The notes beneath the pieces were generated by a model. That model was not told where the DNA came from. It saw only the letters and a program-made list of their open reading frames with translations, and searched no databases. A stretch of 64,000 nucleotides of DNA from Bacteroidales bacterium (GTDB lineage Bacteria > Bacteroidota > Bacteroidia > Bacteroidales > F082): assembly GCA_013141455.1 (NCBI GenBank), contig JABFQW010000003.1, positions 1-64,000 of the forward strand. Reading direction: 5' to 3'. Of the stretch, positions 22,559-60,812 are shown one piece after another. Positions within the stretch are counted from its first letter, which is position 1; each line of letters opens with the position of its first letter. The position numbers and the translations under genes were made by a program.

Positions 22559-22804
22559 ATGGAAACAAAACTGACACTAAGATTGAATAAAAACATCATC
22601 AATAAGGCCAAAAATTATGCGCATCTGCACAATATCAGCCTTTCGAAGATGATTGAGTCTTATCTTGATTCGATTACTAAACAGGAGAAAACGACCACTG
22701 AAATTTCTCCATTGGTCAAAAGTCTGAGTGGTGTAATCAGCCTCGAACAGGATTATGACTATAAAGAGGATTATTCATCTTTTCTGAAAGAGAAATACAA
22801 ATGA
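22559..22804 (+). CDS. Ribbon-helix-helix antitoxin (DUF6364-like)
   Basis: The 81-residue protein opens with LTLRLNKNIINKAKNYAHLH, a strand-helix pattern of RHH DNA-binding antitoxins, and continues with SLSKMIESYLD. The second half is acidic and probably wraps the toxin. It overlaps the PIN gene by 4 bp (ATGA), the standard toxin-antitoxin layout. It likely represses its own promoter. Confidence 0.82.
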   Translation: METKLTLRLNKNIINKAKNYAHLHNISLSKMIESYLDSITKQEKTTTEISPLVKSLSGVISLEQDYDYKEDYSSFLKEKYK

Positions 22805-23217
22805 GAAAGCTTTTTCTCGATACCAATATCGTCATTGACCTCCTCGCAAAACGAGAACCTTTCTATGAAGAAGCTGCTGTATTGTTTACAATGGCAGACA
22901 ATAAAGTGCTACAATTATTTGTTTCAGCGCTAACATTTGCCAATACGAATTACATTTTGCTTCATGTAATGAAACCGGAAGAGGCTAAACTGATTCTTCG
23001 AAAGTTGAAATTGATCGTTCATGTGCTAAGTCTCGATGATAAAATTGTTGGATTATCACTTAATGATAATGGTTTTAGCGATTACGAAGACGCACTTCAA
23101 TATTATACGGCACTCGAAAATGGTGCCGATGCAATCATCACCAGAAATCTTCGGGATTTTCAGAAGGCAAAAATGCCTGTAATGACTGCTTCGCAATTTT
23201 TGAAGAGTATTCTATAG
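22801..23217 (+). CDS. PIN-domain toxin (VapC-like)
   Basis: The 138-residue protein is a single PIN domain. FLDTNIVIDLL at the N-terminus supplies the first Asp, DYEDALQY the next acidic pair and ITRNLRDF the C-terminal acidic residue, so the active site looks intact. VapC-type toxins cleave RNA, often tRNA, when free of antitoxin. It is translationally coupled to the RHH antitoxin. Confidence 0.87.
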   Translation: MRKLFLDTNIVIDLLAKREPFYEEAAVLFTMADNKVLQLFVSALTFANTNYILLHVMKPEEAKLILRKLKLIVHVLSLDDKIVGLSLNDNGFSDYEDALQYYTALENGADAIITRNLRDFQKAKMPVMTASQFLKSIL

Positions 23218-25369: not shown

Positions 25370-26440
25370 TTATCTCGTCTGAAAGTACTTTCTTTTGAAA
25401 TAAAAAGCAACATTCACCAAACCAATCATCACCGGGACCTCTACCAACGGACCGATCACGGCCGCAAATGCTTCACCCGAATTCATTCCGAAAATGGCAA
25501 TCGCAACAGCAATGGCCAATTCAAAATTATTACTGGCTGCTGTAAACGAAAGCGTTACAGATTGCTCGTAATTTGCACCGACCTTTTTGCTCATGAAGAA
25601 TGAAATCACGAACATTGTTACAAAATAAATGAGTAATGGGATCGCGATTAACACCACATCGAGCGGTATTTTAACAATATATTCACCTTTGAGTGAGAAC
25701 ATAACGATGATCGTGAAGAGTATTGCAATAAGCGTCAACGGGCTTATTTTCGGGATAAATTTTGTATGATACCAGACTTTGCTTTTCACACGGATCAATA
25801 TAAAACGGGTAAGGAAACCGGCAATAAAAGGTATTCCAAGGTAAATAAAAACGCTTTCAGCTATTTGTCTGATGGTTATTTTGGCAACGGCTTCGCTTGT
25901 AGGAATGTCGAACCAGGCAGGAGCAATGGCGATAAAAAAATAGGCATACACCGAAAAGAATAGTACCTGAAATACACTATTAAAGGCTACCAATCCGGCC
26001 GCATATTGCGTATCGCCTTTGGCAAGGTCGTTCCAGACAATTACCATGGCAATGCATCGGGCTAATCCAATCATGATTATACCATACACATAAGGTAAGT
26101 TGGCGTTGTTTTCGCCCGGAAAGAATTTGAAAAGCAATATGGCAAGTGTAAACATCAATACCGGACCGATGATCCAGTTTTGAATCAGCGATAAACCAAG
26201 TATTTTAGTGTTGCGAAACACTTCGCCCAACTCTTCGTACTTCACTTTAGCCAAAGGTGGATACATCATGACAATCAGCCCGATGGCAATGGGGATATTG
26301 GTTGTTCCGGATGACATACTGTTCCAGAATTCGGCAACAGAAGGATACAGCCAACCTGAGAATACGCCGATAAACATGGCTGAGAAAATCCATAAAGTCA
26401 GATATCGGTCGAGGAATTTTAATCGTTTTTGTGAGGGCAT
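25370..26440 (-). CDS. ACR3-family arsenite efflux permease
   Basis: The 356-residue protein has ten membrane segments and the ACR3 hallmarks: [19 protein letters not shown], the essential Cys in [14 protein letters not shown] and a late EVPVM. It exports arsenite from the cytoplasm, driven by the membrane potential. It sits downstream of ArsC, which makes arsenite from arsenate, with a four-helix-bundle gene inserted between. Confidence 0.95.
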
Positions 26441-26531: not shown

Positions 26532-26888
26532 TTAGATTGTACGTTTTGATGTCCCTATTATTTTTGAAATAATCTTTTTTATCGGCTCAAGGTCATCCAA
26601 AAGTCGGGTTGAATCAGGCAGTTTTTTTGAATGTTTACAAAGCAACAACCAATATTCAGTTTCTTCGACCTCTTTGGCAGAAATCTTAAATTTATGAATA
26701 AAATCTGCTCTACTTTCTGCATTTTGCGCTTCTCTTGCGTTAGCACCAATGGAGGTACCGGATTTAAAAAGTTGATCAGATAGTTTGTACTTCCTTATTC
26801 CATCAAGTCCATCACAGAAATCAATAATTTTCAATGCAAACTCAAAAGTCAGGTTAATAATCGCGTTTTCTTTGAATTCGTTGTTCAT
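26532..26888 (-). CDS. Four-helix-bundle protein (23S rRNA IVP-like)
   Basis: The 118-residue all-helical protein matches the bacterial four-helix-bundle (IVP/S23) family, with an N-terminal FEFALKIIDFCDGL, the SDQLFKSGTSIGANAREAQNAESRADF centre and the EVEETEYWLLLC part. The function of this family is unknown; members occur as inserts in rRNA genes and as isolated genes. Here it interrupts an arsenic unit between arsC and ACR3 and is bracketed by inverted AT-rich repeats, so it probably arrived as a separate insertion. Confidence 0.85.
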   Translation of the reverse strand: MNNEFKENAIINLTFEFALKIIDFCDGLDGIRKYKLSDQLFKSGTSIGANAREAQNAESRADFIHKFKISAKEVEETEYWLLLCKHSKKLPDSTRLLDDLEPIKKIISKIIGTSKRTI

Positions 26889-26930: not shown

Positions 26931-26979
26931 ATTGTCAAATTGCCGAATTGTCAAATTATAAAATTGTCGAATTATAGAA
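26931..26979. repeat. Degenerate A/T repeat, right of the four-helix gene
   Basis: Repeated AATTGTCRAATT blocks, inverted relative to those at 26477-26506. They reach into the last codons of arsC, so the C-terminal YNSTIL of that protein is encoded by repeat-like sequence. Confidence 0.5.
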
Positions 26980-27372
26980 TTCCCTGAAAGCCTTTTCAAT
27001 TTCATCTCTTACACGGATAAATTCATTGTGTATAAATTCATCCGAACCTGTTAGGTGCGAAGGATCATCGAAGCCAATGTGCAGCCGATGTTTCACTTTG
27101 CCGATGAAGGCCGGACAGGCTTCGTTGGCACCTCCACAAACGGTGATCACATAATCCCATTCTTCGCCCAGATACAGATCGACTGAATCGGAAGTATGGT
27201 GACTGATGTCGATACCAGCTTCCTTCATGACTGAAACGGCTTTTTCGTTAAGTTTTCCGGAAGCTTCTGTTCCGGCAGAACAAACTTTGATATTCAGATC
27301 AAAGGACTGCAAAAAGCCATGAGCCATCTGGCTGCGGCAACTGTTTCCGGTACATAAAATCAATATTTTCAT
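26956..27372 (-). CDS. arsC: Thioredoxin-coupled arsenate reductase (low-MW PTP fold)
   Basis: The 138-residue protein has the LMW-phosphatase loop CTGNSCRSQ near its start and a second pair of cysteines in VITVCGGANEACP. This three-Cys set identifies the thioredoxin-dependent ArsC type, which reduces arsenate to arsenite. I use the ATG at 27372, directly before KILILCTGNS, because the upstream ATG at 27414 would run 14 codons into the ABC ATPase gene. The C-terminal end is encoded by an AT-rich repeat and may have been altered. Confidence 0.93.
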   Translation of the reverse strand: MKILILCTGNSCRSQMAHGFLQSFDLNIKVCSAGTEASGKLNEKAVSVMKEAGIDISHHTSDSVDLYLGEEWDYVITVCGGANEACPAFIGKVKHRLHIGFDDPSHLTGSDEFIHNEFIRVRDEIEKAFREFYNSTIL

Positions 27373-27379
27373 TTTTAAA

Positions 27380-28066
27380 TTAGTTTTTGTTTTTAATATC
27401 AAGTTTTCCATCAATAAGTTTGATTTTTACATTGCCGTAATCAGCGGCCTGAGGACTATGGGTTACCATCATTATGGTGATATTCAGATCCTTATTAATT
27501 GTTTGCAGGAATTCTAAAATTTCAGTTGATAGTGTTGGATCGAGATTTCCTGTTGGTTCATCAGCAAAAATAATCGTGGGTTTATTCACCAGAGCTCTGG
27601 CAATGGCAACACGCTGCTGTTGTCCGGCAGAAAGCTCTCTTGGAAAATGATTTTGTCTGTTTGCCAATCCAACCAGTTCCATTACGGCGGATGATAGAGC
27701 CTTTTGTTCGGAAGAAGTTTTACCATTCAATCCCAATGGAATCATGACATTTTGAATCGCTGTCATATAAGGAATGAGAGAAAAATTCTGCATAACAAAT
27801 CCCACATGTTTCTTCCTGAATTCTGCAAGTTCTTTATCGGATGCACATGCAATATCCTGATTTTCAAACAATATTTTCCCAAAACTGGGACGGATTAAAC
27901 CACTCAATGCAAGTAGTAAGGTTGTTTTACCCGATCCTGAAGGGCCGGTAATAGATACAAAATCGCCTTTCTGAATTCTAAGTGAAACGTCATTCAGAGC
28001 GTACACGATTCCGTCCCTCATTTGGTATGTTTTAGCGATATTCTCGGCTGTTAAAATAGTTTTCAT
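27380..28066 (-). CDS. ABC transporter ATP-binding protein (LolD/MacB type)
   Basis: The 228-residue ATPase has Walker A GPSGSGKTT, the signature ELSAGQQQRVAIARAL, in which LSAGQ replaces the usual LSGGQ, Walker [13 protein letters not shown] and the H-loop MVTHSPQAA. It belongs to the LolD/MacB/FtsE group that works with FtsX-type permeases. Its start overlaps the permease stop by 4 bp, so they form one transporter. Its place inside an ArsR-controlled unit implies a role in metalloid or thiol stress. Confidence 0.92.
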   Translation of the reverse strand: MKTILTAENIAKTYQMRDGIVYALNDVSLRIQKGDFVSITGPSGSGKTTLLLALSGLIRPSFGKILFENQDIACASDKELAEFRKKHVGFVMQNFSLIPYMTAIQNVMIPLGLNGKTSSEQKALSSAVMELVGLANRQNHFPRELSAGQQQRVAIARALVNKPTIIFADEPTGNLDPTLSTEILEFLQTINKDLNITIMMVTHSPQAADYGNVKIKLIDGKLDIKNKN

Positions 28067-29280
28067 ACTTCCTGCATATTTGAATAAGGTTCAAAACGAG
28101 CTGCAAACCAGGCTGGTAATACCGATCCTATCAATGAGATGAAAACAGAAATCATAACTGACCAAAGTAAAAGAATTGGAATGGGTGCGATATTTATTCC
28201 GGCAATATAAGGACCTAAAAACCAGGCAATCAGCACGCCTGCCAGATATCCGATAACTCCGCCAATTAAGCCCATGATGACTGCCTTAAGCATGAGAATA
28301 TAATAAATGGATGATTTGGGGTAGCCGATCATGCGCAATATTCCGATTTCTCTTTTGCGTTCGTTTACATTTGCCCACATATAATTTCCTATCGAAATTC
28401 CACCAACAAACACTATGATAATCAGTATGATAAGCGAAATTTGATTCATCAGTTGATTTGTCTTAATTTGGGTCGAAACAATTTGGCCAATGGTGGTGAT
28501 TTTGGTATCGGGCAGAATATTACGAAGTTTCCCAAGCAGTCCATCCGAAATGGCATTGCAGCAACCCATGATCTCGATGGCACTTACCTGATTCGGGATT
28601 CCAAGGATTGCTTGTACTGTGTGCAGATGCGCAAAAATGCGATCATCATCGATTGTACCCGTTTCACTGAGAACCTTTCCAATTGTTAATTCAGTCTTTT
28701 CGATGGTGATTTTATCACCTTCTTTCAGATTCAGCCGGATAGCTGCTACTGAACCGATCAGGCAATCGGACATTCCCAGTGCATCAATAGATTTTCGCTG
28801 AAGTTTTTCATCCTTATAACCCAATGTTTCGTTCGATGGATTTGGTCCGCATGCAGCTTTTATTTCGGCTCCAAACAGACCTGAATTTTGCCAGATTGGT
28901 TTTGAGGCTAACTCGTTTTTAGGTAATATTCCGGTTAAAACCAGTTTTTGACCATTGATGTCGATTCGTCTTGTTAATTTTGGCGATAGATTGTCCACAC
29001 CAGTAAGATTTGAAGTAACTATCCGTTCAACATATTCTTCAGGAAATGTGGGAGCGTCAATATCAGCAGCATAATAATTATCAACGCTGGCGCCCAGAGG
29101 TAAAACCATAATGTTTGCTCCAAGATTATCGAGGTTGATGGCAACTGCCTTTTCAGAAACAACAGAAATAGATCGGATGGCAACGATAACCCCGACACCG
29201 AGTGTAATGGCTAAAATACCCGAAATCAACTGTGTTTTGCGTTGGCCAAGTTCGAGCCAGACAAGTTTATACAGATTCAT
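28063..29280 (-). CDS. FtsX/MacB-type ABC permease with vicinal Cys pair
   Basis: The 405-residue protein has one N-terminal membrane segment, a periplasmic domain of about 220 residues, and three C-terminal membrane segments, the MacB/FtsX topology. The C-terminal NVNERKREIGILRMIGYPKSS coupling segment is characteristic. The periplasmic domain has cysteines in KAACGPN and a vicinal pair in EIMGCCNAISDG, unusual for oxidising surroundings and of the type that binds As(III) or soft metals. It lies between the Cys-tailed periplasmic protein and its ATPase in the ArsR-led unit. Confidence 0.88.
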   Translation of the reverse strand: MNLYKLVWLELGQRKTQLISGILAITLGVGVIVAIRSISVVSEKAVAINLDNLGANIMVLPLGASVDNYYAADIDAPTFPEEYVERIVTSNLTGVDNLSPKLTRRIDINGQKLVLTGILPKNELASKPIWQNSGLFGAEIKAACGPNPSNETLGYKDEKLQRKSIDALGMSDCLIGSVAAIRLNLKEGDKITIEKTELTIGKVLSETGTIDDDRIFAHLHTVQAILGIPNQVSAIEIMGCCNAISDGLLGKLRNILPDTKITTIGQIVSTQIKTNQLMNQISLIILIIIVFVGGISIGNYMWANVNERKREIGILRMIGYPKSSIYYILMLKAVIMGLIGGVIGYLAGVLIAWFLGPYIAGINIAPIPILLLWSVMISVFISLIGSVLPAWFAARFEPYSNMQEV

Positions 29281-29291
29281 ATTTCAGATTT

Positions 29292-30023
29292 TTATTTCGG
29301 ACAACATCCGCTTCCGGCTCCTGGTGCGCAACTACTACTGATGACCTTGCGTGATGCAGCGATAAGGTCAGAAGAGCTGACAGGTGATTTAAACTCACCT
29401 GTAAACTGACCTTTGTTGTTAAAAACCAGGATATGTGTAATAGTTGCATCCAATTCAGGTTTTAATAAACTCAAAAATTCGACCTCACTTTTATCTTCAA
29501 GATCAACATCAACAACCACCGCTTTAGTATTTAATGCGGCTACAGCATTTTTACACTCTTGAATTGCAACAGTTTTGTCTGTCATTGATTTTTTATATAA
29601 AATGATAAAAGCTGATTTTCCTTCAGAAAATGCCAGTAAGGCATCGGCTTGTTTTTTTGTTGGAATTGCATCAACAAGTTTATCAGGTGATGCCTGATCT
29701 AAAACATAGCCACCTGTTACCACACCATTTGTTGCCATAACGAGGAGGATTGGTGTGGGGGCTCCTGATAATCCATATTTAGAAATCAGAGCAGCATTTG
29801 TCTGATCAAGCCGGTCAAGAGTAATCACTTCTGATTTTGGATATTTTTTCTGTGCCTGAGAAGCGATTTCTTTGGCTTCAGATAACCTGGCATTTCCGTC
29901 AGAAACTACTAGAAAAACAACGTTTTTATTTAAAACGGCAGCTTCTATTTTTTCCTTCGTCTGTGTAAATACGGTCGTTGTAAACAATACGAGCGTGAGT
30001 AAACAAAAAATCTTCCTTTTCAT
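29292..30023 (-). CDS. Periplasmic double-thioredoxin-like protein with Cys-rich tail
   Basis: The 243-residue protein has a signal peptide (MKRKIFCLLTLVLF..., cleavage near 21) and two successive segments with thioredoxin-like strand patterns (about 30-120 and 130-225), but no CxxC in either. It ends in CAPGAGSGCCPK, with Cys at 232, 240 and 241. Such a tail could bind As(III) or another soft metal. The gene is 11 bp before an ABC permease whose periplasmic domain also has a Cys pair, so it may be that transporter's substrate-binding partner. The family is not one I can name and the function is inference. Confidence 0.7.
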   Translation of the reverse strand: MKRKIFCLLTLVLFTTTVFTQTKEKIEAAVLNKNVVFLVVSDGNARLSEAKEIASQAQKKYPKSEVITLDRLDQTNAALISKYGLSGAPTPILLVMATNGVVTGGYVLDQASPDKLVDAIPTKKQADALLAFSEGKSAFIILYKKSMTDKTVAIQECKNAVAALNTKAVVVDVDLEDKSEVEFLSLLKPELDATITHILVFNNKGQFTGEFKSPVSSSDLIAASRKVISSSCAPGAGSGCCPK

Positions 30024-30105: not shown

Positions 30106-30438
30106 TTATTGTGAATCACAATGTATTTCGGAAGTTCTGATGGAGTCAAAAAACTGGTCGAACATCGCCAGACGTGACTGAATCTGAGTGGAACACAGGC
30201 AATAATTCACCTTTAAACCATCAATTGTACCATGAATCAATCCCATATCTTTCAATTCTTTTAGATGTTGCGAAACAGTTGTCCGGCTTAAGGGTATCTG
30301 ACCCGAAATATCTCCGGAAATACATGACTTCGTTTCAGCGAGATATTTAAGGATGGCAAGCCGTGCCGGGTGTGAAATAGCCTTGGTAAAAGCAGCCAAC
30401 TCTTGCAAGTCTTCGTTAAAAAGATCTTTCTTTATCAT
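30106..30438 (-). CDS. ArsR-family repressor (downstream arsenic unit)
   Basis: The 110-residue winged-helix protein has AISHPARLAILKYLAE, SRTTVSQHLKELKDMGLI (recognition helix) and a beta-wing, the ArsR/SmtB pattern. Cysteines in KSCISG and YCLCS are possible As(III) ligands; the classic ELCVCDL motif is absent. It heads the unit that runs to the rhodanese gene. A 22-bp inverted repeat upstream, enclosing the -7 box, is its likely operator. Confidence 0.9.
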   Translation of the reverse strand: MIKKDLFNEDLQELAAFTKAISHPARLAILKYLAETKSCISGDISGQIPLSRTTVSQHLKELKDMGLIHGTIDGLKVNYCLCSTQIQSRLAMFDQFFDSIRTSEIHCDSQ

Positions 30439-30449
30439 TGTTTATGTTT

Positions 30450-30471
30450 AATGTAGCAAACATACGACATT
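30450..30471 (-). promoter_or_regulatory. Candidate ArsR operator over the -7 box, downstream unit
   Basis: AATGTAG (30450-30456) and CGACATT (30465-30471) are inverted repeats with one mismatch. The 8-base spacer, read on the minus strand, is TATGTTTG, a perfect TAnnTTTG -7 box. Repressor binding would cover the promoter. A possible -33 TTG lies at 30489-30487. The layout equals the element at 33515-33536. Confidence 0.7.
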
Positions 30472-30707: not shown

Positions 30708-31733
30708 TCAGAGTACATAATTAAACAAATACCCAACAATCATGATTCCGGTTGCTACAATTCCGACAAAGGTCAGAATCAAAGGAAGTTTGAGTACTTT
30801 TTTCAGAATGATCATTTCCGGCAGCGAAAGTCCGATTACGGCCATCATGAAAGCAAGTGAGGTACCCAACGAAGCTCCTTTCTCAATCAAAACTGAAACG
30901 ATCGGAATAATCCCAGCAGCATTTGAATAGAGTGGCACGCCAATCAATACTGACAATGGCACACTATACCAAACTGATTTCCCCATCAGCGCTGCCATAT
31001 AATCTTCCGGAACATATCCATGAGCGCCAGCCCCCACAGCGATACCGATAGCCACATAAATCCAAACCTTGCCCACTATTTCTTTAACAGCCTCATATCC
31101 GCGTTGAATTCGCAGTGAAAATGTTAGTTTTTCTTCCGTATCACCTTCGTTGCCCAAATGTGTTTTATATACCCAATCCTGTACCCAGTGCTCTAATTTC
31201 AGCTTTCCGATAATCCAGCCTGCCACAATGGCAATCACAAGTCCGGTCAATACGTAAATTAAGGCTGTTTTCCAGCCAAACAAACCAAAAAGCAGAATCA
31301 CGGCTACCTCATTGATCATGGGCGCGGCAATCAGAAATGAAAATGTAACCCCAAGCGGAACCCCGGTCTCAACAAAACCAAGAAACAAAGGAATGGCCGA
31401 ACAGGAACAAAATGGCGTTACGATTCCCAGCAATGATGCCAATACGTTCCCGGTAAAGGTCGATTTTCCTTCAAGCATTTTCCGGGTTCGTTCGGGCGAA
31501 AAATAGGTTCTTATAATTCCAACAACAAAAATGATCAGGGCAAGCAACATCATCACTTTTGGCACTTCAAAAATGAAAAACCGGAGCGCTTCGGTCAGGT
31601 GCTTACCTGCTTTCATCTCCAAAATATGATCAACAAACCAATCAGAAAGAGGATGCAAATAATGGTAAATAAGGAACCAGAGCGGAATGAGCAAAAGAGC
31701 GATTGTAAAATTCTTATTCCATTTCATATTCAT
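30708..31733 (-). CDS. DUF318-type permease (ArsP/SO0444-like)
   Basis: The 341-residue protein has about eight to ten membrane segments and the paired-domain form of DUF318 permeases, with TPFCSCSAIPLFLGFVETG in the first half and VPLYSNAAGIIPI in the second. The CSCS motif is shared with ArsP-type exporters of trivalent organoarsenicals and with copper/zinc efflux relatives. I chose the start at 31733; the longer frame would run 120 bp upstream into the neighbouring gene. An ATG two codons later is an alternative. The ArsR/ArsF/ArsG context favours an arsenical substrate. Confidence 0.85.
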   Translation of the reverse strand: MNMKWNKNFTIALLLIPLWFLIYHYLHPLSDWFVDHILEMKAGKHLTEALRFFIFEVPKVMMLLALIIFVVGIIRTYFSPERTRKMLEGKSTFTGNVLASLLGIVTPFCSCSAIPLFLGFVETGVPLGVTFSFLIAAPMINEVAVILLFGLFGWKTALIYVLTGLVIAIVAGWIIGKLKLEHWVQDWVYKTHLGNEGDTEEKLTFSLRIQRGYEAVKEIVGKVWIYVAIGIAVGAGAHGYVPEDYMAALMGKSVWYSVPLSVLIGVPLYSNAAGIIPIVSVLIEKGASLGTSLAFMMAVIGLSLPEMIILKKVLKLPLILTFVGIVATGIMIVGYLFNYVL

Positions 31734-31773
31734 ATTTTTTATTTCGGATCGATTTAAATTGACATCTATGAAT

Positions 31774-32472
31774 TTAAAACGATACCAGAAAAATATAATA
31801 TATGCCAACCACAATAAACAAAACTGCCACAATGCGCCTGAACCAGCGCTCAAATGTTTTTATCTGCTTATAAAAATTCCCTAAGTTTCCGATAGCAAAG
31901 GCAAGAATCCATGCAAAAAGAATGACGGGCAATCCGGTTGTAACAGCAAACACCACAGGCAGATACAATCCTTTGGCGCTGGCAATGGTCATGGGTATCA
32001 GCATCCCAAAATAAAGCACGCCACTGTATGGACAAAAAGCGAGTGCGAAGATCATTCCTAATAGAAGGGTTCCCAAATAACTGCCTTTTACTTTGTTTTC
32101 AAGCTTTTCCGAAATTCCGGAAAAGCCCGGGAATCTTATCCTGATAACATCAAGCATAAACAGACCGATAAGGATCAGCAAAGGACCGAGGATTTTTTCG
32201 CCCCAACCCTGAAACAGCATCGAAACATGCATTTTACTTGCTCCGAAAAACAGTATCAATGCCAGTCCGGTATAACTTATCGCTCTGCCTAAGGTGTAAA
32301 CCAAACCATTCATAAACACGCGGTTTTTGTTTTCGATATCCCGGCTGATAAAACCGATGGCGGAGATATTGGTAGCAAGCGGGCACGGACTTATCGCGGT
32401 CATTAGCCCCAATATCATGGCAGTGATCACTGAGTACTCCGTGTTCTCAAGTATGCTTTTTAAAAATTCCAT
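31774..32472 (-). CDS. ArsG-family transporter (CcdA/DsbD-like membrane protein)
   Basis: The 232-residue protein has six membrane segments with the CcdA-type Cys-Pro motifs: AISPCPLATN in the first segment and LAFCPYSGVLYFG in the fourth. These cysteines could pass electrons across the membrane. The sequence fits the group named ArsG in aromatic-arsenical clusters, where it accompanies ArsF. It ends 40 bp before the DUF318 permease and begins 3 bp after the ArsF-like gene, so the three form a unit. Confidence 0.85.
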   Translation of the reverse strand: MEFLKSILENTEYSVITAMILGLMTAISPCPLATNISAIGFISRDIENKNRVFMNGLVYTLGRAISYTGLALILFFGASKMHVSMLFQGWGEKILGPLLILIGLFMLDVIRIRFPGFSGISEKLENKVKGSYLGTLLLGMIFALAFCPYSGVLYFGMLIPMTIASAKGLYLPVVFAVTTGLPVILFAWILAFAIGNLGNFYKQIKTFERWFRRIVAVLFIVVGIYYIFLVSF

Positions 32473-32475
32473 GCC

Positions 32476-32898
32476 TTAATTCCGGCTTACCTTATCCACC
32501 GCGGTTTGTATGATTTGTTTCATTTTTTCAAGATCGCCGGAGTTCAAAAATCCTTTGTCGGTGATATCTTCCTTCTTTTCGCCGCAAACGACCAAAAGTG
32601 TCTGGCCGCCAATACCTAATTTTTCGGCTATTTTCTCACTTCCCTCATCATCAAGGTTGATGCCCTGAAACAAATAATCACCACTTTTGATTTTGTCGGA
32701 ATACAATTCCTCAACGGCTTTTTTTGAATTCGCTTCCACCGCTTTGCAGGTTTCGCATCTTCTGGTAAAATGAAAATAATACACTTCTACTTTCGTCCCA
32801 GGTTTAATTTCAGTAACCGGACTTGTTTGAGCCTGAACAGGAGAATTCAGGCAGCTCATTGCCATCACTACGGCGATGATAAACCACATTTTTTTCAT
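32476..32898 (-). CDS. ArsF-family thioredoxin-like secreted protein
   Basis: The 140-residue protein starts with a signal peptide (MKKMWFIIAVVMAMSCLNS, cleavage after AQA near 24). The mature domain carries VYYFHFTRRCETCKAVE, the CxxC motif of the ArsF family found with ArsG. Periplasmic reduction, fed by ArsG, is a reasonable reading. I start at 32898; an in-frame ATG at 32925 would put nine extra residues before the signal peptide. Confidence 0.82.
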   Translation of the reverse strand: MKKMWFIIAVVMAMSCLNSPVQAQTSPVTEIKPGTKVEVYYFHFTRRCETCKAVEANSKKAVEELYSDKIKSGDYLFQGINLDDEGSEKIAEKLGIGGQTLLVVCGEKKEDITDKGFLNSGDLEKMKQIIQTAVDKVSRN

Positions 32899-32942
32899 CA
32901 GTATTTTTTTTATTGGTAATCGCATTCTTTCCAGGTCGGTGT

Positions 32943-33176
32943 TTATCTCATCAATAATTTTCTGATTTCATCTGCTGATGGAACCCGTCCTTTTATTTCA
33001 ACTTTTCCATCAACCACTAAGGCCGGTGTTGTCATGATATTGTACTTCATGATCTCAACAATATCTTCTACCTTGGTGATCGTTGCTTCAATATTGTTTT
33101 GCTCAACAATATCGCGGGTGAGTTTTTCGAGTGTTTTGCATTTGGCGCATCCAGGGCCTAAAATCTTGATATCCAT
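32943..33176 (-). CDS. Small CxxC thioredoxin (redox-active disulfide protein 2 type)
   Basis: The 77-residue protein opens with IKILGPGCAKCKTLEK, the CxxC of the MTH895/TM0996 small thioredoxins, and has the cis-Pro segment MTTPALVVDG. It has no signal peptide and is cytoplasmic. It could reduce the ArsG CcdA-type protein from inside, or serve ArsC. It is the second gene of the ArsR-led unit. Confidence 0.9.
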   Translation of the reverse strand: MDIKILGPGCAKCKTLEKLTRDIVEQNNIEATITKVEDIVEIMKYNIMTTPALVVDGKVEIKGRVPSADEIRKLLMR

Positions 33177-33209
33177 GGTTTAAAAATTTAAATTTATTGA
33201 AATTGAATA

Positions 33210-33503
33210 TTATTTTTTTAGCAGTGCATCAAACAATAGTTTTGCTGAAGCCCAATTTTCTTTATTAATGCAATACTTGATATAAGGTGGGTTGATTTCT
33301 CCCTGTATCAGTCCGGCGGCTTTTAGTTCCTTCAGGTGTTGCGAAAGGGTTGATAAAGCGATTGGAAACTCCTCAGCAATATTTCCGCTATAACAACAAT
33401 CCTGATTTGATAATATTTCGAGGATTTTGATGCGAGCCGGGTTACCCATTGCTTTGGCAAACCGTGCAAGCTGTATCTGGTTCTGAGAATAAGAAATTTT
33501 CAT
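33210..33503 (-). CDS. ArsR-family repressor (upstream arsenic unit)
   Basis: The 97-residue winged-helix protein has MGNPARIKILEILSNQ, the vicinal Cys pair NQDCCYSG at the start of the third helix, and ALSTLSQHLKELKAAGLI. The CC and the later Cys in YIKYCIN are candidates for As(III) binding. It is the first gene of the unit that runs through the DUF318 permease, and its operator is visible just upstream. Confidence 0.92.
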   Translation of the reverse strand: MKISYSQNQIQLARFAKAMGNPARIKILEILSNQDCCYSGNIAEEFPIALSTLSQHLKELKAAGLIQGEINPPYIKYCINKENWASAKLLFDALLKK

Positions 33504-55894: not shown

Positions 55895-58261
55895 ATGTTC
55901 TATTCGTTTTTAATCACTTTTTACCGCAATGCAATACGCAGAATTGGTTCTACGGTGATTAATCTGTTGGGACTCTCTATCGGTCTGGCCGCCGGAATCC
56001 TGATTCTGCTCTATGTTTTTAACGAATACAGCTTCGACAGGTTCCATAAAAATTTCGAGTCAATCAGCCGCGTCAATCTGAATTACGCCAATAAGGATGA
56101 CGATTTTTATGCAAGCGAAATACCTGCAGCCGTTGGGCCCAGCCTGCTTGAGTACTTCCCTGAAATCAGCTCCTTCTGCCGTGTGACCAACACCCGAGAT
56201 GCCTATTTTAATTATAAGGGTAAAATTGTTGACATTGAGAATGTTATCTACGCCGATTCTAACTTTTTTCAGTTCTTCAGTTTTCAATTGGCCGAAGGGA
56301 ACACAAAGGATGTTTTACGGGGTATCAGGAAGCTTGTATTAACCGAAGAATTGTCAACCAAACTGTTTGGTGATGAAAATCCAATTGGAAAAATAGTGTT
56401 ACTCAATGGTACCGAAAGCTGGTTGGTTAGCGGAGTTGCCAAAAAATCACCTCAAAACTCAACAATTCAGTTTGAAGCCCTGCTCTCGTTTGAAACGCTT
56501 TATACCGATCCGGATTTATACATGGATTGGAACGGAGGTAACCAATATCAAACGTATGTTGCTCTAAATCCCACTTTTAACAAAGCCGGTTTTGAGTCGA
56601 AACTTGAATATTTTCTCGATATCCAGATCAACAGAAAACTCGAAGGTTCAGGATTTAAGGTTGGATTGATGTTGGAGCCCATGCAGCGGTTACATCTCTA
56701 TTCGTTAACCGAAGATGGTTCGGGCGGCAATATTGCGAATATCCGGATTTTTGCACTTATTGCCATTTTCATCCTTCTGATTGCCTGCTTCAACTTCACA
56801 AATATGGCGGCAGCATCGGCCATTTATCGCGCGAGGGAAACCGGTATCCGAAAAGTATTGGGGGCAACACGCCCAACACTCATCAGGCAATACCTGGGCG
56901 AATCGATCATGCTGAGCGTGCTGGCAGCTTTGTTGGCACTCTTGTTAACCGAAATCGTTATGCCTTATTATAATGCCTTGATCGACAAAGATTTGAATTT
57001 CTACCAAACCGGAAATTTTATCATACCCATCGCATTTATCGTATTGGTTATTGTTACTGGATTCGTCTCCGGCATTTTTCCGGCGATTTTTTTGTCAGCG
57101 TATCAACCAGTTGACACCTTAAAAGGCGGATTCATCTCCTCCAAAAACAGACATCTTTTCCCTAAAATCCTTGTCGTGCTCCAGTTTGCCATCGCTGTCG
57201 GGCTATTGAACAGCATCTGGATAATCAATAGCCAGTTAAAATATATCAGAGAATATAAAACCGGATTTTATACCGAAAATGTTTTTGGAATATCGCTTCC
57301 GGGCAAAACAGCCAAAGAAAAAGTTGAAGTGCTTAAGCAGGCTTTTCTTCAACAGGCCGGGGTAATTCAGTGTGGAGCCACGGTTGAACTGCCCGGCGCA
57401 GGGGTCACCATGAATGGCTATTTTCCCGAAACTTACACCCAACCTGTAATGATTCATGTGATGGATATCGATGCCACCTTCATCGAAACGATGGGAATGA
57501 CAGTGGTTAAGGGCCGTGATTTTGATAAAATAGATGCTGAAAACCCAATGAATTGTCTGGTGAATGAAGCTTATGTTCGTCAATATGTTGCATCGGATCC
57601 AATTGGTAAAAAGATTTCAAGAGGAGGAGAAATGACCATTATCGGTGTGGTGAAAGACTTTCATTTTGCTTCGTTGCACGAAACAATTGCACCACTGATA
57701 CTTACAAACAAACCCTATAACGGATTTAATTTTATCGCTGTCAGAACTGCTGATAATGCCGGAAACAATGTGATTGAAAAGCTTGAAAAGGCATGGTTCA
57801 GTGTATTGCCAAACGATCCATTCATTCCGGTTTCAATGTCAACTTATCTGCAACGCAGTTATGTAAGCGAAATGCAACTTGCATCCATACTCTCGTGGTT
57901 TACATTTCTGGCTGTCATTATTGCCGTAACCGGATTATTGGGTTTGTCGTCACTCATTTTGAAACTCAGGACAAAGGAGTTGGGAATCAGAAAAATACTT
58001 GGCGCTTCGGGTCAACGACTTATGATTGCATCGCTTATCGAATTTTCAATTTTGGTACTTATCGCAAATGTGCTGGCGGTAATTCCGGTATGGTATTTCA
58101 TGGATGCCTGGTTAGCTGGATTTAGTTATACGATACATATTTCAGCAGCAAATTTTGCGGTTACCTTGATCGTTACACTGCTGATTTCATGGATCAGTGT
58201 TGGTTGGCAGGCCTTGCGGGCCGCACGGGTTAAAACGATAGATATTATTAAATATGAATAA
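55895..58261 (+). CDS. Large MacB/FtsX-type ABC permease, first
   Basis: The 788-residue protein is a double-FtsX permease of the kind common in Bacteroidota: an N-terminal segment (IRRIGSTVINLLGLSIGLAA), a periplasmic MacB core, three membrane segments in the middle (with RARETGIRKVLGATR), a second periplasmic domain, and three more at the end (with RTKELGIRKILGASG). It should work with the adaptor and ATPase upstream. Confidence 0.92.
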   Translation: MFYSFLITFYRNAIRRIGSTVINLLGLSIGLAAGILILLYVFNEYSFDRFHKNFESISRVNLNYANKDDDFYASEIPAAVGPSLLEYFPEISSFCRVTNTRDAYFNYKGKIVDIENVIYADSNFFQFFSFQLAEGNTKDVLRGIRKLVLTEELSTKLFGDENPIGKIVLLNGTESWLVSGVAKKSPQNSTIQFEALLSFETLYTDPDLYMDWNGGNQYQTYVALNPTFNKAGFESKLEYFLDIQINRKLEGSGFKVGLMLEPMQRLHLYSLTEDGSGGNIANIRIFALIAIFILLIACFNFTNMAAASAIYRARETGIRKVLGATRPTLIRQYLGESIMLSVLAALLALLLTEIVMPYYNALIDKDLNFYQTGNFIIPIAFIVLVIVTGFVSGIFPAIFLSAYQPVDTLKGGFISSKNRHLFPKILVVLQFAIAVGLLNSIWIINSQLKYIREYKTGFYTENVFGISLPGKTAKEKVEVLKQAFLQQAGVIQCGATVELPGAGVTMNGYFPETYTQPVMIHVMDIDATFIETMGMTVVKGRDFDKIDAENPMNCLVNEAYVRQYVASDPIGKKISRGGEMTIIGVVKDFHFASLHETIAPLILTNKPYNGFNFIAVRTADNAGNNVIEKLEKAWFSVLPNDPFIPVSMSTYLQRSYVSEMQLASILSWFTFLAVIIAVTGLLGLSSLILKLRTKELGIRKILGASGQRLMIASLIEFSILVLIANVLAVIPVWYFMDAWLAGFSYTIHISAANFAVTLIVTLLISWISVGWQALRAARVKTIDIIKYE

Positions 58262-58400
58262 ATGGGAACGGAAGGCAGACGTTTAAGGTCAGTTACTGGT
58301 GACTTGTTACTGGTTATGAGTAACCAAAAACCTGTAACCATTACTAAATAGCTGTTATAGATAAACAAAGTACGGAATAAACGATAACACCACATACACC

Positions 58401-60812
58401 ATGTATCTGACTCAACTGAAAATAGCGTTACGCAATATTTTTAAACACAAAATTTCATCCATTGTAAATGTGTTTGGACTGGCGATCGGATTGGCGAGTT
58501 TCATCCTGATCCTGTTGTATGTGGTGGATGAATTAAGTTATGACAAGCAGCATAAAAACGCTGATTCAATATATCGTTTGGTAAGCATTTCCGATTTCGA
58601 AGGCGTTGGTGAGGAATCGGCCAGTGCACCATTTCCGGTAGCTCCAACGCTTGTGAATGAGTTTCCCGGAATGATAGAACGTGTGGTGAGGCTGTTTAAT
58701 TTTCAGGCGCCGCGAAGCCTGATTCAATTGGATGAAAAAGTATATAACGAAAGGAGATTGTTTTTCGCCGATTCGAATTTCTTTCAGATGTTCGATTACA
58801 ATTTCATTTATGGTGATCCACAAATTGCTTTAAATGAAGCATTTGCTGTTGTTATCACCAAAGAGACAGCCGAAAAGTATTTTGGAAGAGAGAATCCGAT
58901 GGGGAAACTTTTCCGATACGAAGGAAACTTTGATTTAAAAGTTACCGGTGTTATCGACAAGGTGCCATCAACCTCTCATTTCACCTGGGATTTTATGGTT
59001 TCCATGTCATCGGCAAAAACGATGTTTCGCGGAAAACTTCCCGAAACATGGGTCTGGAACCCATGCTGGACCTATATTCAGTTGAAACAAGGTGTAAAAC
59101 AATCACAATTGGAAGCGGCTTTTCCCGAATTTGTGAAGAAATTCTATTACGATGCTTCCAAAACAAGTATCCGACTGTATCTTCAAAAATTGACAGATAT
59201 TCACCTTTTTTCTCATCTCGATTATGAGATCGAACCGAATGGAAACAACAGCTATGTACATATTTTATCCACCATAGCCATCTTTTTACTGATGATTGCA
59301 ACCATCAATTTTATGAATCTGAGCACTGCCACCTCCGGTTCGCGTACGGTTGAAATCGGAATGAAAAAAGTGATCGGAGCTGAACGGTGGCAACTCGTAG
59401 CTCAGTTTCTGGGCGAGGCTTTGATCATCAGTTTTCTGGCTCTTTTATTAGCACTGCTTATGGTTGAAATAGGACTACCCTATTTTAATGTATTGGCTAA
59501 TAAACAGTTAAGCTTAAGTCTGTTTCTCAAACCACTTTGGTTCTTTGTTCTTTTCATGATAGGTTTATTAACAGGTCTTCTATCGGGATTGTATCCTGCT
59601 TTTTACCTTTCATCTTTTCAGCCATTACTCGTGTTGAAGGGACACTTTACAGGTAGTCTGCGTACAGGACTGGCACGTAAGATATTGGTTGTCATACAAT
59701 TCACCATTTCCATCGGGTTAATTGTGAGTACATTAACAGCGTTCGATCAGCTCCATTTTCTGCGTAATGCCAATCTTGGATTTAATAAAGATGCCGTTGT
59801 TTTCATTCAGGTGACAAGGAATCCGATTATTCAGCGCTACGAAAGTTTTAAAAATGAACTCCTTGCCAATCCTGATATCAAGGCTGTTACCTGTGTTGAT
59901 GATATTTTTGGTGTATCCCACAACACCCATGAATTTCGTCCCGAAGGCGTACCGGAAGATGAATGGCAGTTTTATCCGGCCCTGATCGTTGATGAAGATT
60001 TTATCAAAACATTTGATATTCAAATTGTTGCCGGACGTGATTATAATCGTAACAACAAAACAGATGCAGCAAATGCCATGCTGATTAACGAAGCCATGGT
60101 AAAATATATGGGTTGGGGTAGCAATGAAAACGCAATCGGTAAGAAATTCAAATCACTCGGTGGTGAAGAACGTGTGATTGGTGTATTTAAAGATTTCAAT
60201 GCAACCTCGCTGCACACGGCAGCTTCGCCATTTGTGTTGAATATTAAAGAAGACGATCGTGCCAGGTTCTTCTTTCTGAAGTTTGTTGCGATAAGAATCG
60301 TTGGTGGTAATTATGCAAAAACCATGGCCGATATCGAGAAAACATTCAACCAATATGCACCAGGCAGGCCTTTTGAGTACAGTTTCCTTTCGGATGAACT
60401 GAACAAACAATATATCGAAGAAACACGACTGAGCAAGTTTTCGCTCGGGCTGACCCTATTGATCATTTTTGTTGCCGGGCTTGGACTGTTTGGATTGGTT
60501 TCCTACATGATCGCCCAACGCAACCGCGAAATATGTATCCGGTTAACTGTCGGGGCCGGATTAAAAAATATGTTTGTGCTGTTTTCGAAAGAATATCTCT
60601 GGTTAATCATTTTGTCGAATCTTATTGCCTGGCCTGTTTCGTGGCTGATGTTGCATCGCTGGCTCGAAAACTTTGCTTATCATATTAACCTGAGTATCGG
60701 ATATTTTGTCGTTGCCGGTTTGGTTTCGGTTTTGATGACGCTGAGTATCATCTTATGGCGAACAACTTCGGCAATTCGCTCTAATCCATTGCAGGCCCTG
60801 CGTTGGGAATAA
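58401..60812 (+). CDS. Large MacB/FtsX-type ABC permease, second
   Basis: The 803-residue protein has the same layout as the permease at 55895: IFKHKISSIVNVFGLAIGLAS at the start, GSRTVEIGMKKVIGAE in the middle and AQRNREICIRLTVGAG near the end. The two share the family and arose by duplication, though they are well diverged. With one ATPase gene between them and the adaptor, they may form a heterodimer or alternative pumps. A 139-bp gap with TTACTGGTTA-type repeats separates them. Confidence 0.92.
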   Translation: MYLTQLKIALRNIFKHKISSIVNVFGLAIGLASFILILLYVVDELSYDKQHKNADSIYRLVSISDFEGVGEESASAPFPVAPTLVNEFPGMIERVVRLFNFQAPRSLIQLDEKVYNERRLFFADSNFFQMFDYNFIYGDPQIALNEAFAVVITKETAEKYFGRENPMGKLFRYEGNFDLKVTGVIDKVPSTSHFTWDFMVSMSSAKTMFRGKLPETWVWNPCWTYIQLKQGVKQSQLEAAFPEFVKKFYYDASKTSIRLYLQKLTDIHLFSHLDYEIEPNGNNSYVHILSTIAIFLLMIATINFMNLSTATSGSRTVEIGMKKVIGAERWQLVAQFLGEALIISFLALLLALLMVEIGLPYFNVLANKQLSLSLFLKPLWFFVLFMIGLLTGLLSGLYPAFYLSSFQPLLVLKGHFTGSLRTGLARKILVVIQFTISIGLIVSTLTAFDQLHFLRNANLGFNKDAVVFIQVTRNPIIQRYESFKNELLANPDIKAVTCVDDIFGVSHNTHEFRPEGVPEDEWQFYPALIVDEDFIKTFDIQIVAGRDYNRNNKTDAANAMLINEAMVKYMGWGSNENAIGKKFKSLGGEERVIGVFKDFNATSLHTAASPFVLNIKEDDRARFFFLKFVAIRIVGGNYAKTMADIEKTFNQYAPGRPFEYSFLSDELNKQYIEETRLSKFSLGLTLLIIFVAGLGLFGLVSYMIAQRNREICIRLTVGAGLKNMFVLFSKEYLWLIILSNLIAWPVSWLMLHRWLENFAYHINLSIGYFVVAGLVSVLMTLSIILWRTTSAIRSNPLQALRWE

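Follow-up and report, generated by a model that had tools for sequence, protein, structure and literature searches.

Why should an arsenic resistance operon encode an FtsX-type ABC transporter next to a secreted protein that ends in a cysteine-bearing tail? To our knowledge, the known bacterial means of arsenic resistance mostly expel arsenic from the cytoplasm, and protection of the periplasm in Gram-negatives that pump As(III) into this space has been little discussed. The genes concerned lie on the minus strand of the window (the whole 64,000-nt stretch analysed, from a Bacteroidales contig), where those for the tail protein, a permease and its ATPase (the trio, or module) were read in a preliminary description as a candidate arsenic or soft-metal exporter. 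Among the more than 700 transporters of ars operons surveyed in one study, five ABC transporters are mentioned but not described further (PMC4435449), and the term ABC is absent from a review of ars genes (PMC6205960). Literature searches, with subscription papers mostly outside their coverage, returned no description of the three-gene module and nothing joining ‘type VII ABC transporter’ with arsenic.

Gene content and regulation of the ars operon

The first gene of the operon encodes an ArsR/SmtB-family repressor (30106–30438; NF033788, 59.3 bits, cut-off 55) and is followed, all on the minus strand, by genes for the tail protein (29292–30023), the permease (28063–29280), the ATPase (27380–28066), an arsenate reductase, ArsC, of the low-molecular-weight-phosphatase type (26956–27372, ATG at 27372; TIGR02691, 127.5 bits), a protein resembling 23S rRNA intervening-sequence proteins (26532–26888; PF05635) and the arsenite exporter ACR3 (25370–26440; TIGR00832, 434.8 bits, cut-off 282.8). 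Re-reading of the window returned the order and coordinates previously given for ArsR, tail protein, permease and ATPase. Neighbouring genes within the trio overlap or are 11 bp apart, making a single operon likely; rhodanese and TatC genes are found beyond ACR3. Directly upstream is a second ars unit (30708–33503, minus strand) encoding ArsR2, an ArsF-like thioredoxin, the DsbD-like ArsG and an ArsP-family permease (NF040494 and NF040495 over their cut-offs; PF03773). The ACR3, ArsG and ArsF-like matches exceed curated cut-offs, and the ArsC match is below its own (174.3).

An inverted repeat, ATGTTT-N8-AAACAT (30444–30463, minus strand), is conserved just upstream of arsR and is a candidate ArsR operator. 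About 15 of the loci compared have the operator-like repeat GTATGTTTGCnnCATTAAACAT where arsR starts; one of these sites, in locus L044, precedes an arsR heading arsC-arsM-ACR3. Matches to GTATGTTTGCnnCATTAAACAT total 94 versus 38 expected in shuffled sequence, with palindromic sites counted on both strands. The trio is predicted to have a conserved, candidate ArsR-type operator, and this predicted common operator, together with co-location with arsR, arsC and ACR3, places it within an ars operon. ArsR proteins adjacent to the module share a Cys located behind the wing (YC), and many also have a CxC pair at the C-terminus; together these may make up a further metalloid site of three thiols.

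Genes resembling those for 23S rRNA intervening-sequence proteins are also found in the ars clusters of three other loci (L038, L110 and L115). Elsewhere in the window, a two-gene unit encoding a 138-aa PIN-like protein (22559–23217) resembles a toxin-antitoxin pair, and two long proteins (790 and 815 aa; 56756–60788), with two FtsX matches each, are like duplicated ADOP-type permeases.

Cysteines of the tail protein and the permease

The window's tail protein matches no Pfam or NCBIfam family; Pfam Thioredoxin_6 is matched by 11 of 21 relatives (best 2.9e-6). Profile comparison of its N-terminal with its C-terminal half gave E 3.8e-11, column-shuffled controls giving only 0.012 to 0.66; the protein is thus an internal duplication. 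The predicted secondary structure comprises two repeats with elements in the order of the thioredoxin-like fold (low-confidence model, pLDDT 52). AlphaFold models were built from two sequences only (pLDDT 37 for the permease), and a fold search with the low-confidence tail-protein model gave no significant match. The half-versus-half comparison, the Thioredoxin_6 matches and the predicted secondary structure support the two thioredoxin-like domains that had been proposed. CxxC, by which a redox-active thioredoxin would be recognised, is absent from both predicted domains and from those of the aligned relatives. The sequence carries a secretion signal, and in three relatives (L105, L108 and L111) a lipobox-like Cys behind the signal segment is consistent with an anchored, periplasm-facing form.

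The C-x7-CC tail of the preliminary description is present as C232-x7-C240-C241 (29301–29330, minus strand). Its conserved trait, overlooked at that stage like the nearly invariant C157 of the second domain (29553–29555, minus strand; 29 of 31 relatives), is the number of cysteines and not their spacing. Among 31 proteins, exactly three tail Cys are found in 28, four in one and two in two, distributed over 12 spacing patterns, of which CC-x7-C is commonest (13) and the window's C-x7-CC is shared only with L007, an uncultured Bacteroidetes MAG (isolate Loclat_bin-05130). Fixed spacing was dropped as a signature, since it varies where the number of cysteines holds. A constant number at drifting positions is as expected of a flexible three-thiolate As(III) site; a disulfide relay would be more likely to retain a Cys pair and is disfavoured.

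The missing CxxC and the odd number of tail cysteines with drifting spacing, unlike a disulfide relay, also speak against periplasmic thiol-redox support, in which the module, like Campylobacter FetABCDEF, would reduce or protect thiols under arsenic stress and not handle arsenic itself. In agreement with such a role, genes for CxxC thioredoxins and DsbD-like proteins often lie near the module, and a reducing-power relay has been proposed for fetMP-fetABCDEF, the best-studied cluster of FtsX-type permeases, ATPase and thioredoxins and the nearest characterised one (PMC10783030). fetMP-fetABCDEF of Campylobacter jejuni, FetMP-Fls of enterobacterial plasmids and the module are all metal-related and all combine FtsX-type permeases, an ATPase and thioredoxin-fold proteins. 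Unlike the module, the fet systems serve iron acquisition and have two permeases, a DUF2318 protein and CxxC thioredoxins. Membership of the FetABCDEF family was rejected, the module having one permease, a partner without CxxC and no DUF2318 gene seen among its neighbours; on the same grounds of CxxC, tail and DUF2318, thiol-redox support is considered unlikely.

The permease matches FtsX (PF02687, 3.7e-20, over cut-off) and MacB_PCD (PF12704, 2.2e-8, 35.1 bits versus cut-off 27), with the MacB-like periplasmic core between TM1 and TM2. The ATPase gene, encoding an ABC ATPase of LolD/FtsE/MacB type (PF00005, 1.6e-33), overlaps the permease gene; the LolD (best NCBIfam match) and FtsE models fit it best, both below their own cut-offs. 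With FtsX domain, MacB-like core and LolD/FtsE-type ATPase, the pair belongs to the type VII (FtsX/MacB superfamily) ABC systems. Identity with LolCDE was rejected, as the curated cut-offs for LolC/LolE (lolCE, 38.4 versus 362.45 bits) and LolD (215 versus 307.75 bits) were not reached.

The vicinal pair previously placed in the periplasmic domain is C240-C241 (28558–28563, minus strand; motif IEIMGCCNAIS), which precedes the C-terminal FtsX domain (residues 284–398) and is thus periplasmic by homology. Two further invariant periplasmic cysteines had been missed: C144 (28849–28851, minus strand), invariant in 22 of 22 aligned sequences, and C173 (28762–28764, minus strand), invariant, like C240-C241, wherever the position is present. 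In the first 22 permease sequences each of the four positions, where present, is Cys, CC also occurs in all eight further permeases, and the four are kept in 27 of 27 full-length permeases (four of these with a fifth Cys, in the membrane part). CC is found in none of the 17 other FtsX matches of the window's genome, and a FetB-like permease encoded on an E. coli plasmid also lacks it at the corresponding position. Permease orthologues form a tight island (61–93% identity, then a gap to E about 1e-29). Between the window and L007, third positions account for 173 of 224 changes, and the permease appears to be under purifying selection.

Characterised type VII members act on the periplasmic side of the membrane or on the leaflet facing it. 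This architecture (FtsX, MacB_PCD) and the periplasmic location of all the permease's invariant cysteines make it quite unlikely that the ABC pair moves an arsenic-thiol conjugate or a small thiol from cytoplasm to periplasm, with the tail protein as receiver, even though ACR3 and ArsC are encoded in the module's own operon and eukaryotes have ABC-driven arsenic extrusion (cited in a passage of PMC4435449).

Linkage to ars genes and occurrence

Gene order was read around the module in 33 genomes having the tail protein. ACR3, ArsC, ArsM, ArsP or ArsG is on the same stretch in 30 of these loci, and the remaining three (L051, at a contig end, L111 and L112) have ArsR directly upstream, so that the linkage to arsR and ars loci extends to the homologues. 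Overall, the arsR gene is directly upstream of the tail-protein gene in 21 loci. In L111 (3705–6811) and L112 (8316–11475), ArsR and the trio form a stand-alone unit, without another ars gene on the stretch read. With ACR3 over cut-off in 126 of 247 genomes from the order, mere co-presence in a genome would be weak evidence. Chance alone would not be expected to place the genes within a few kilobases of one another, and the linkage is informative for that reason. ACR3 is present in 15 of the 16 permease genomes of the order; in the sixteenth (G440) the contig ends inside the permease.

Divergent tail proteins are found in ars clusters without the ABC pair (L105, 7684–8418; L106, 3599–4348; L107, 7928–8725), suggesting that the tail protein can act without it; the two-Cys tails (L105 and L106) belong to such genomes. 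One cluster with the module also includes an ArsA ATPase (L049, 10938–12653), ArsA and the module not being mutually exclusive. Pairwise-distance correlations within the trio are 0.72, 0.75 and 0.83, and those of the trio with ACR3 and ArsC are 0.28–0.48 and 0.03–0.16, respectively; these values are not corrected for shared ancestry and do not amount to a formal test. The trio appears to co-evolve more closely internally than with arsC or ACR3.

Within the order, 16 of 247 genomes carry the permease. A phylum-wide sample of 395 genomes added a single genome to the window's own; in the family to which that genome belongs, outside the window's class, 5 of 54 genomes have the permease. A tail-protein profile found the protein in 27 of 393 genomes of the order. 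The module thus occurs in some environmental Bacteroidota and in only about 6–7% of the order's genomes, and ACR3 operons must accordingly work without it. Scanned against genome contigs, the tail protein gave one locus, L007. In plasmids, the tail protein had no match and the permease only distant relatives, and none was found in the viral contigs scanned. Judged from sequence, the module is real and conserved.

Proposed role in the periplasm and related systems

From linkage to ars genes, the shared candidate ArsR-type operator and the cysteine pattern, a link between the module and trivalent arsenic, or some similar soft metalloid, is well supported, and to this extent the preliminary reading stands. 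The two sequence checks put forward with it, on conservation of the cysteines and on location of homologues at ars loci, both gave clearly favourable results. Its ‘exporter’ is not supported. A MacAB-TolC-like machine working across the outer membrane, as then envisaged, would agree with MacB giving the best PDB sequence matches of the permease (6e-17), but these lie mainly over the C-terminal membrane part, the tail protein is not of the adaptor type, and no MacA-type adaptor or TolC-type outer-membrane channel gene recurs among the neighbour families listed (25 of 61), making such an exporter very unlikely. Several type VII ABC machines, among them FtsEX, LolCDE and YbbAP-TesA, export no small molecules from the cell. 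That the trio is one ars-operon unit, comprising a type VII ABC complex and a periplasmic partner for trivalent arsenicals or a similar soft metalloid, is given about an even chance.

The module is like MacAB-TolC, LolCDE-LolA, FtsEX-EnvC and YbbAP-TesA in having a permease with a large periplasmic domain and C-terminal FtsX helices, a LolD/FtsE-like ATPase and a partner in the periplasm, whose gene in this case belongs to the same operon. It is unlike them in that this partner consists of duplicated thioredoxin-like domains and a three-Cys tail, the permease has four invariant periplasmic Cys and is encoded in an ArsR-led ars operon, and no counterpart of MacA, TolC, LolA or EnvC recurs beside it. 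Each of the known type VII ABC systems of E. coli has a periplasmic partner, and in known systems of this type the movements made by the periplasmic domain are coupled to ATP (PMC12646458).

In the mechanism proposed here, three thiolates of the tail would bind As(III), or else MAs(III) or Sb(III); once loaded, the tail would dock on the permease, and the permease cysteines would take over the metalloid or compete for it, with ATP-driven movement of the periplasmic domain making the transfer one-way. Given that no adaptor or channel gene recurs among the neighbour families listed, handover within the periplasm would be more likely than direct export. The likely benefit would be clearance of metalloid that ACR3 and ArsP put into the periplasm, or its removal from thiols of the envelope, in either case before it can re-enter or harm proteins of the periplasm. 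The neighbouring ArsG and ArsF-like CxxC thioredoxin could keep the thiols reduced. Whether this amounts to a new functional class, ATP-driven periplasmic metalloid handling in which a thioredoxin-like carrier with an AsS3 tail exchanges trivalent arsenic with a Cys-bearing permease and detoxification is directed at the periplasm instead of the cytoplasm, is a more tentative proposition, held at somewhat less than an even chance. If true, a conserved ABC module and its dedicated thiol carrier would give the periplasm ATP-driven protection, and the range of type VII ABC machines would come to include metalloids. The short three-thiol tail might then be tried as a sensor element. In itself, conserved Cys number with drifting position can serve as a signature in looking for further metalloid carriers.

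Thiol-based delivery of As(III) to an ATP-driven machine is known from ars operons in ArsA/ArsD, which the proposed module would resemble in this respect; ArsA/ArsD is, however, cytoplasmic and has no sequence relationship to the module. A set of three thiols would be expected to bind Hg(II), Cu(I), Cd(II) or Sb(III) as well. The metalloid site of AfArsR, like the module's tail, has three Cys in a short flexible stretch (CC-x5-C), forming AsS3 in AfArsR; as AfArsR is a transcription factor, the likeness is at the motif level only. A 10-residue AfArsR peptide, NCCHGTRDCA, forms AsS3 alone (log K 6.35 at pH 7.5) and binds Hg(II) more tightly (PMC11212059), and metalloid selectivity is consequently not readable from the motif.

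The module might instead act on another soft metal, or in envelope repair, and merely travel with ars genes. The two loci with ArsR as the sole ars gene on the stretch read (L111 and L112) could be taken in this sense, as could a distant relative on Pelobacter propionicus plasmid pPRO1, whose neighbours are a heavy-metal P-type ATPase and a Cus-like pump. Ars genes accompany the module in all but three of the 33 loci, many of which share the operator found at an ACR3 operon, and genes for copper or mercury were not noticed among these loci; an unrelated role of this kind is regarded as highly improbable. The pPRO1 permease (WP_011733754.1) has 26% identity to that of the window over its whole length, with CSGC in place of CC. 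Its cluster (L012, 7030–9839) comprises genes for an HMA protein, a DUF2318 protein, the FtsX permease and an ATPase, and the HMA protein ends in a CC-x6-C tail resembling that of the module. Unlike the module, the pPRO1 cluster has DUF2318 and M23 genes, a metal P-type ATPase and a Cus-like context, and no double-thioredoxin protein. It is possibly a sister system for another soft metal, and its CSGC may be a hint that thiol-bearing type VII ABC systems for soft metals form a wider group.
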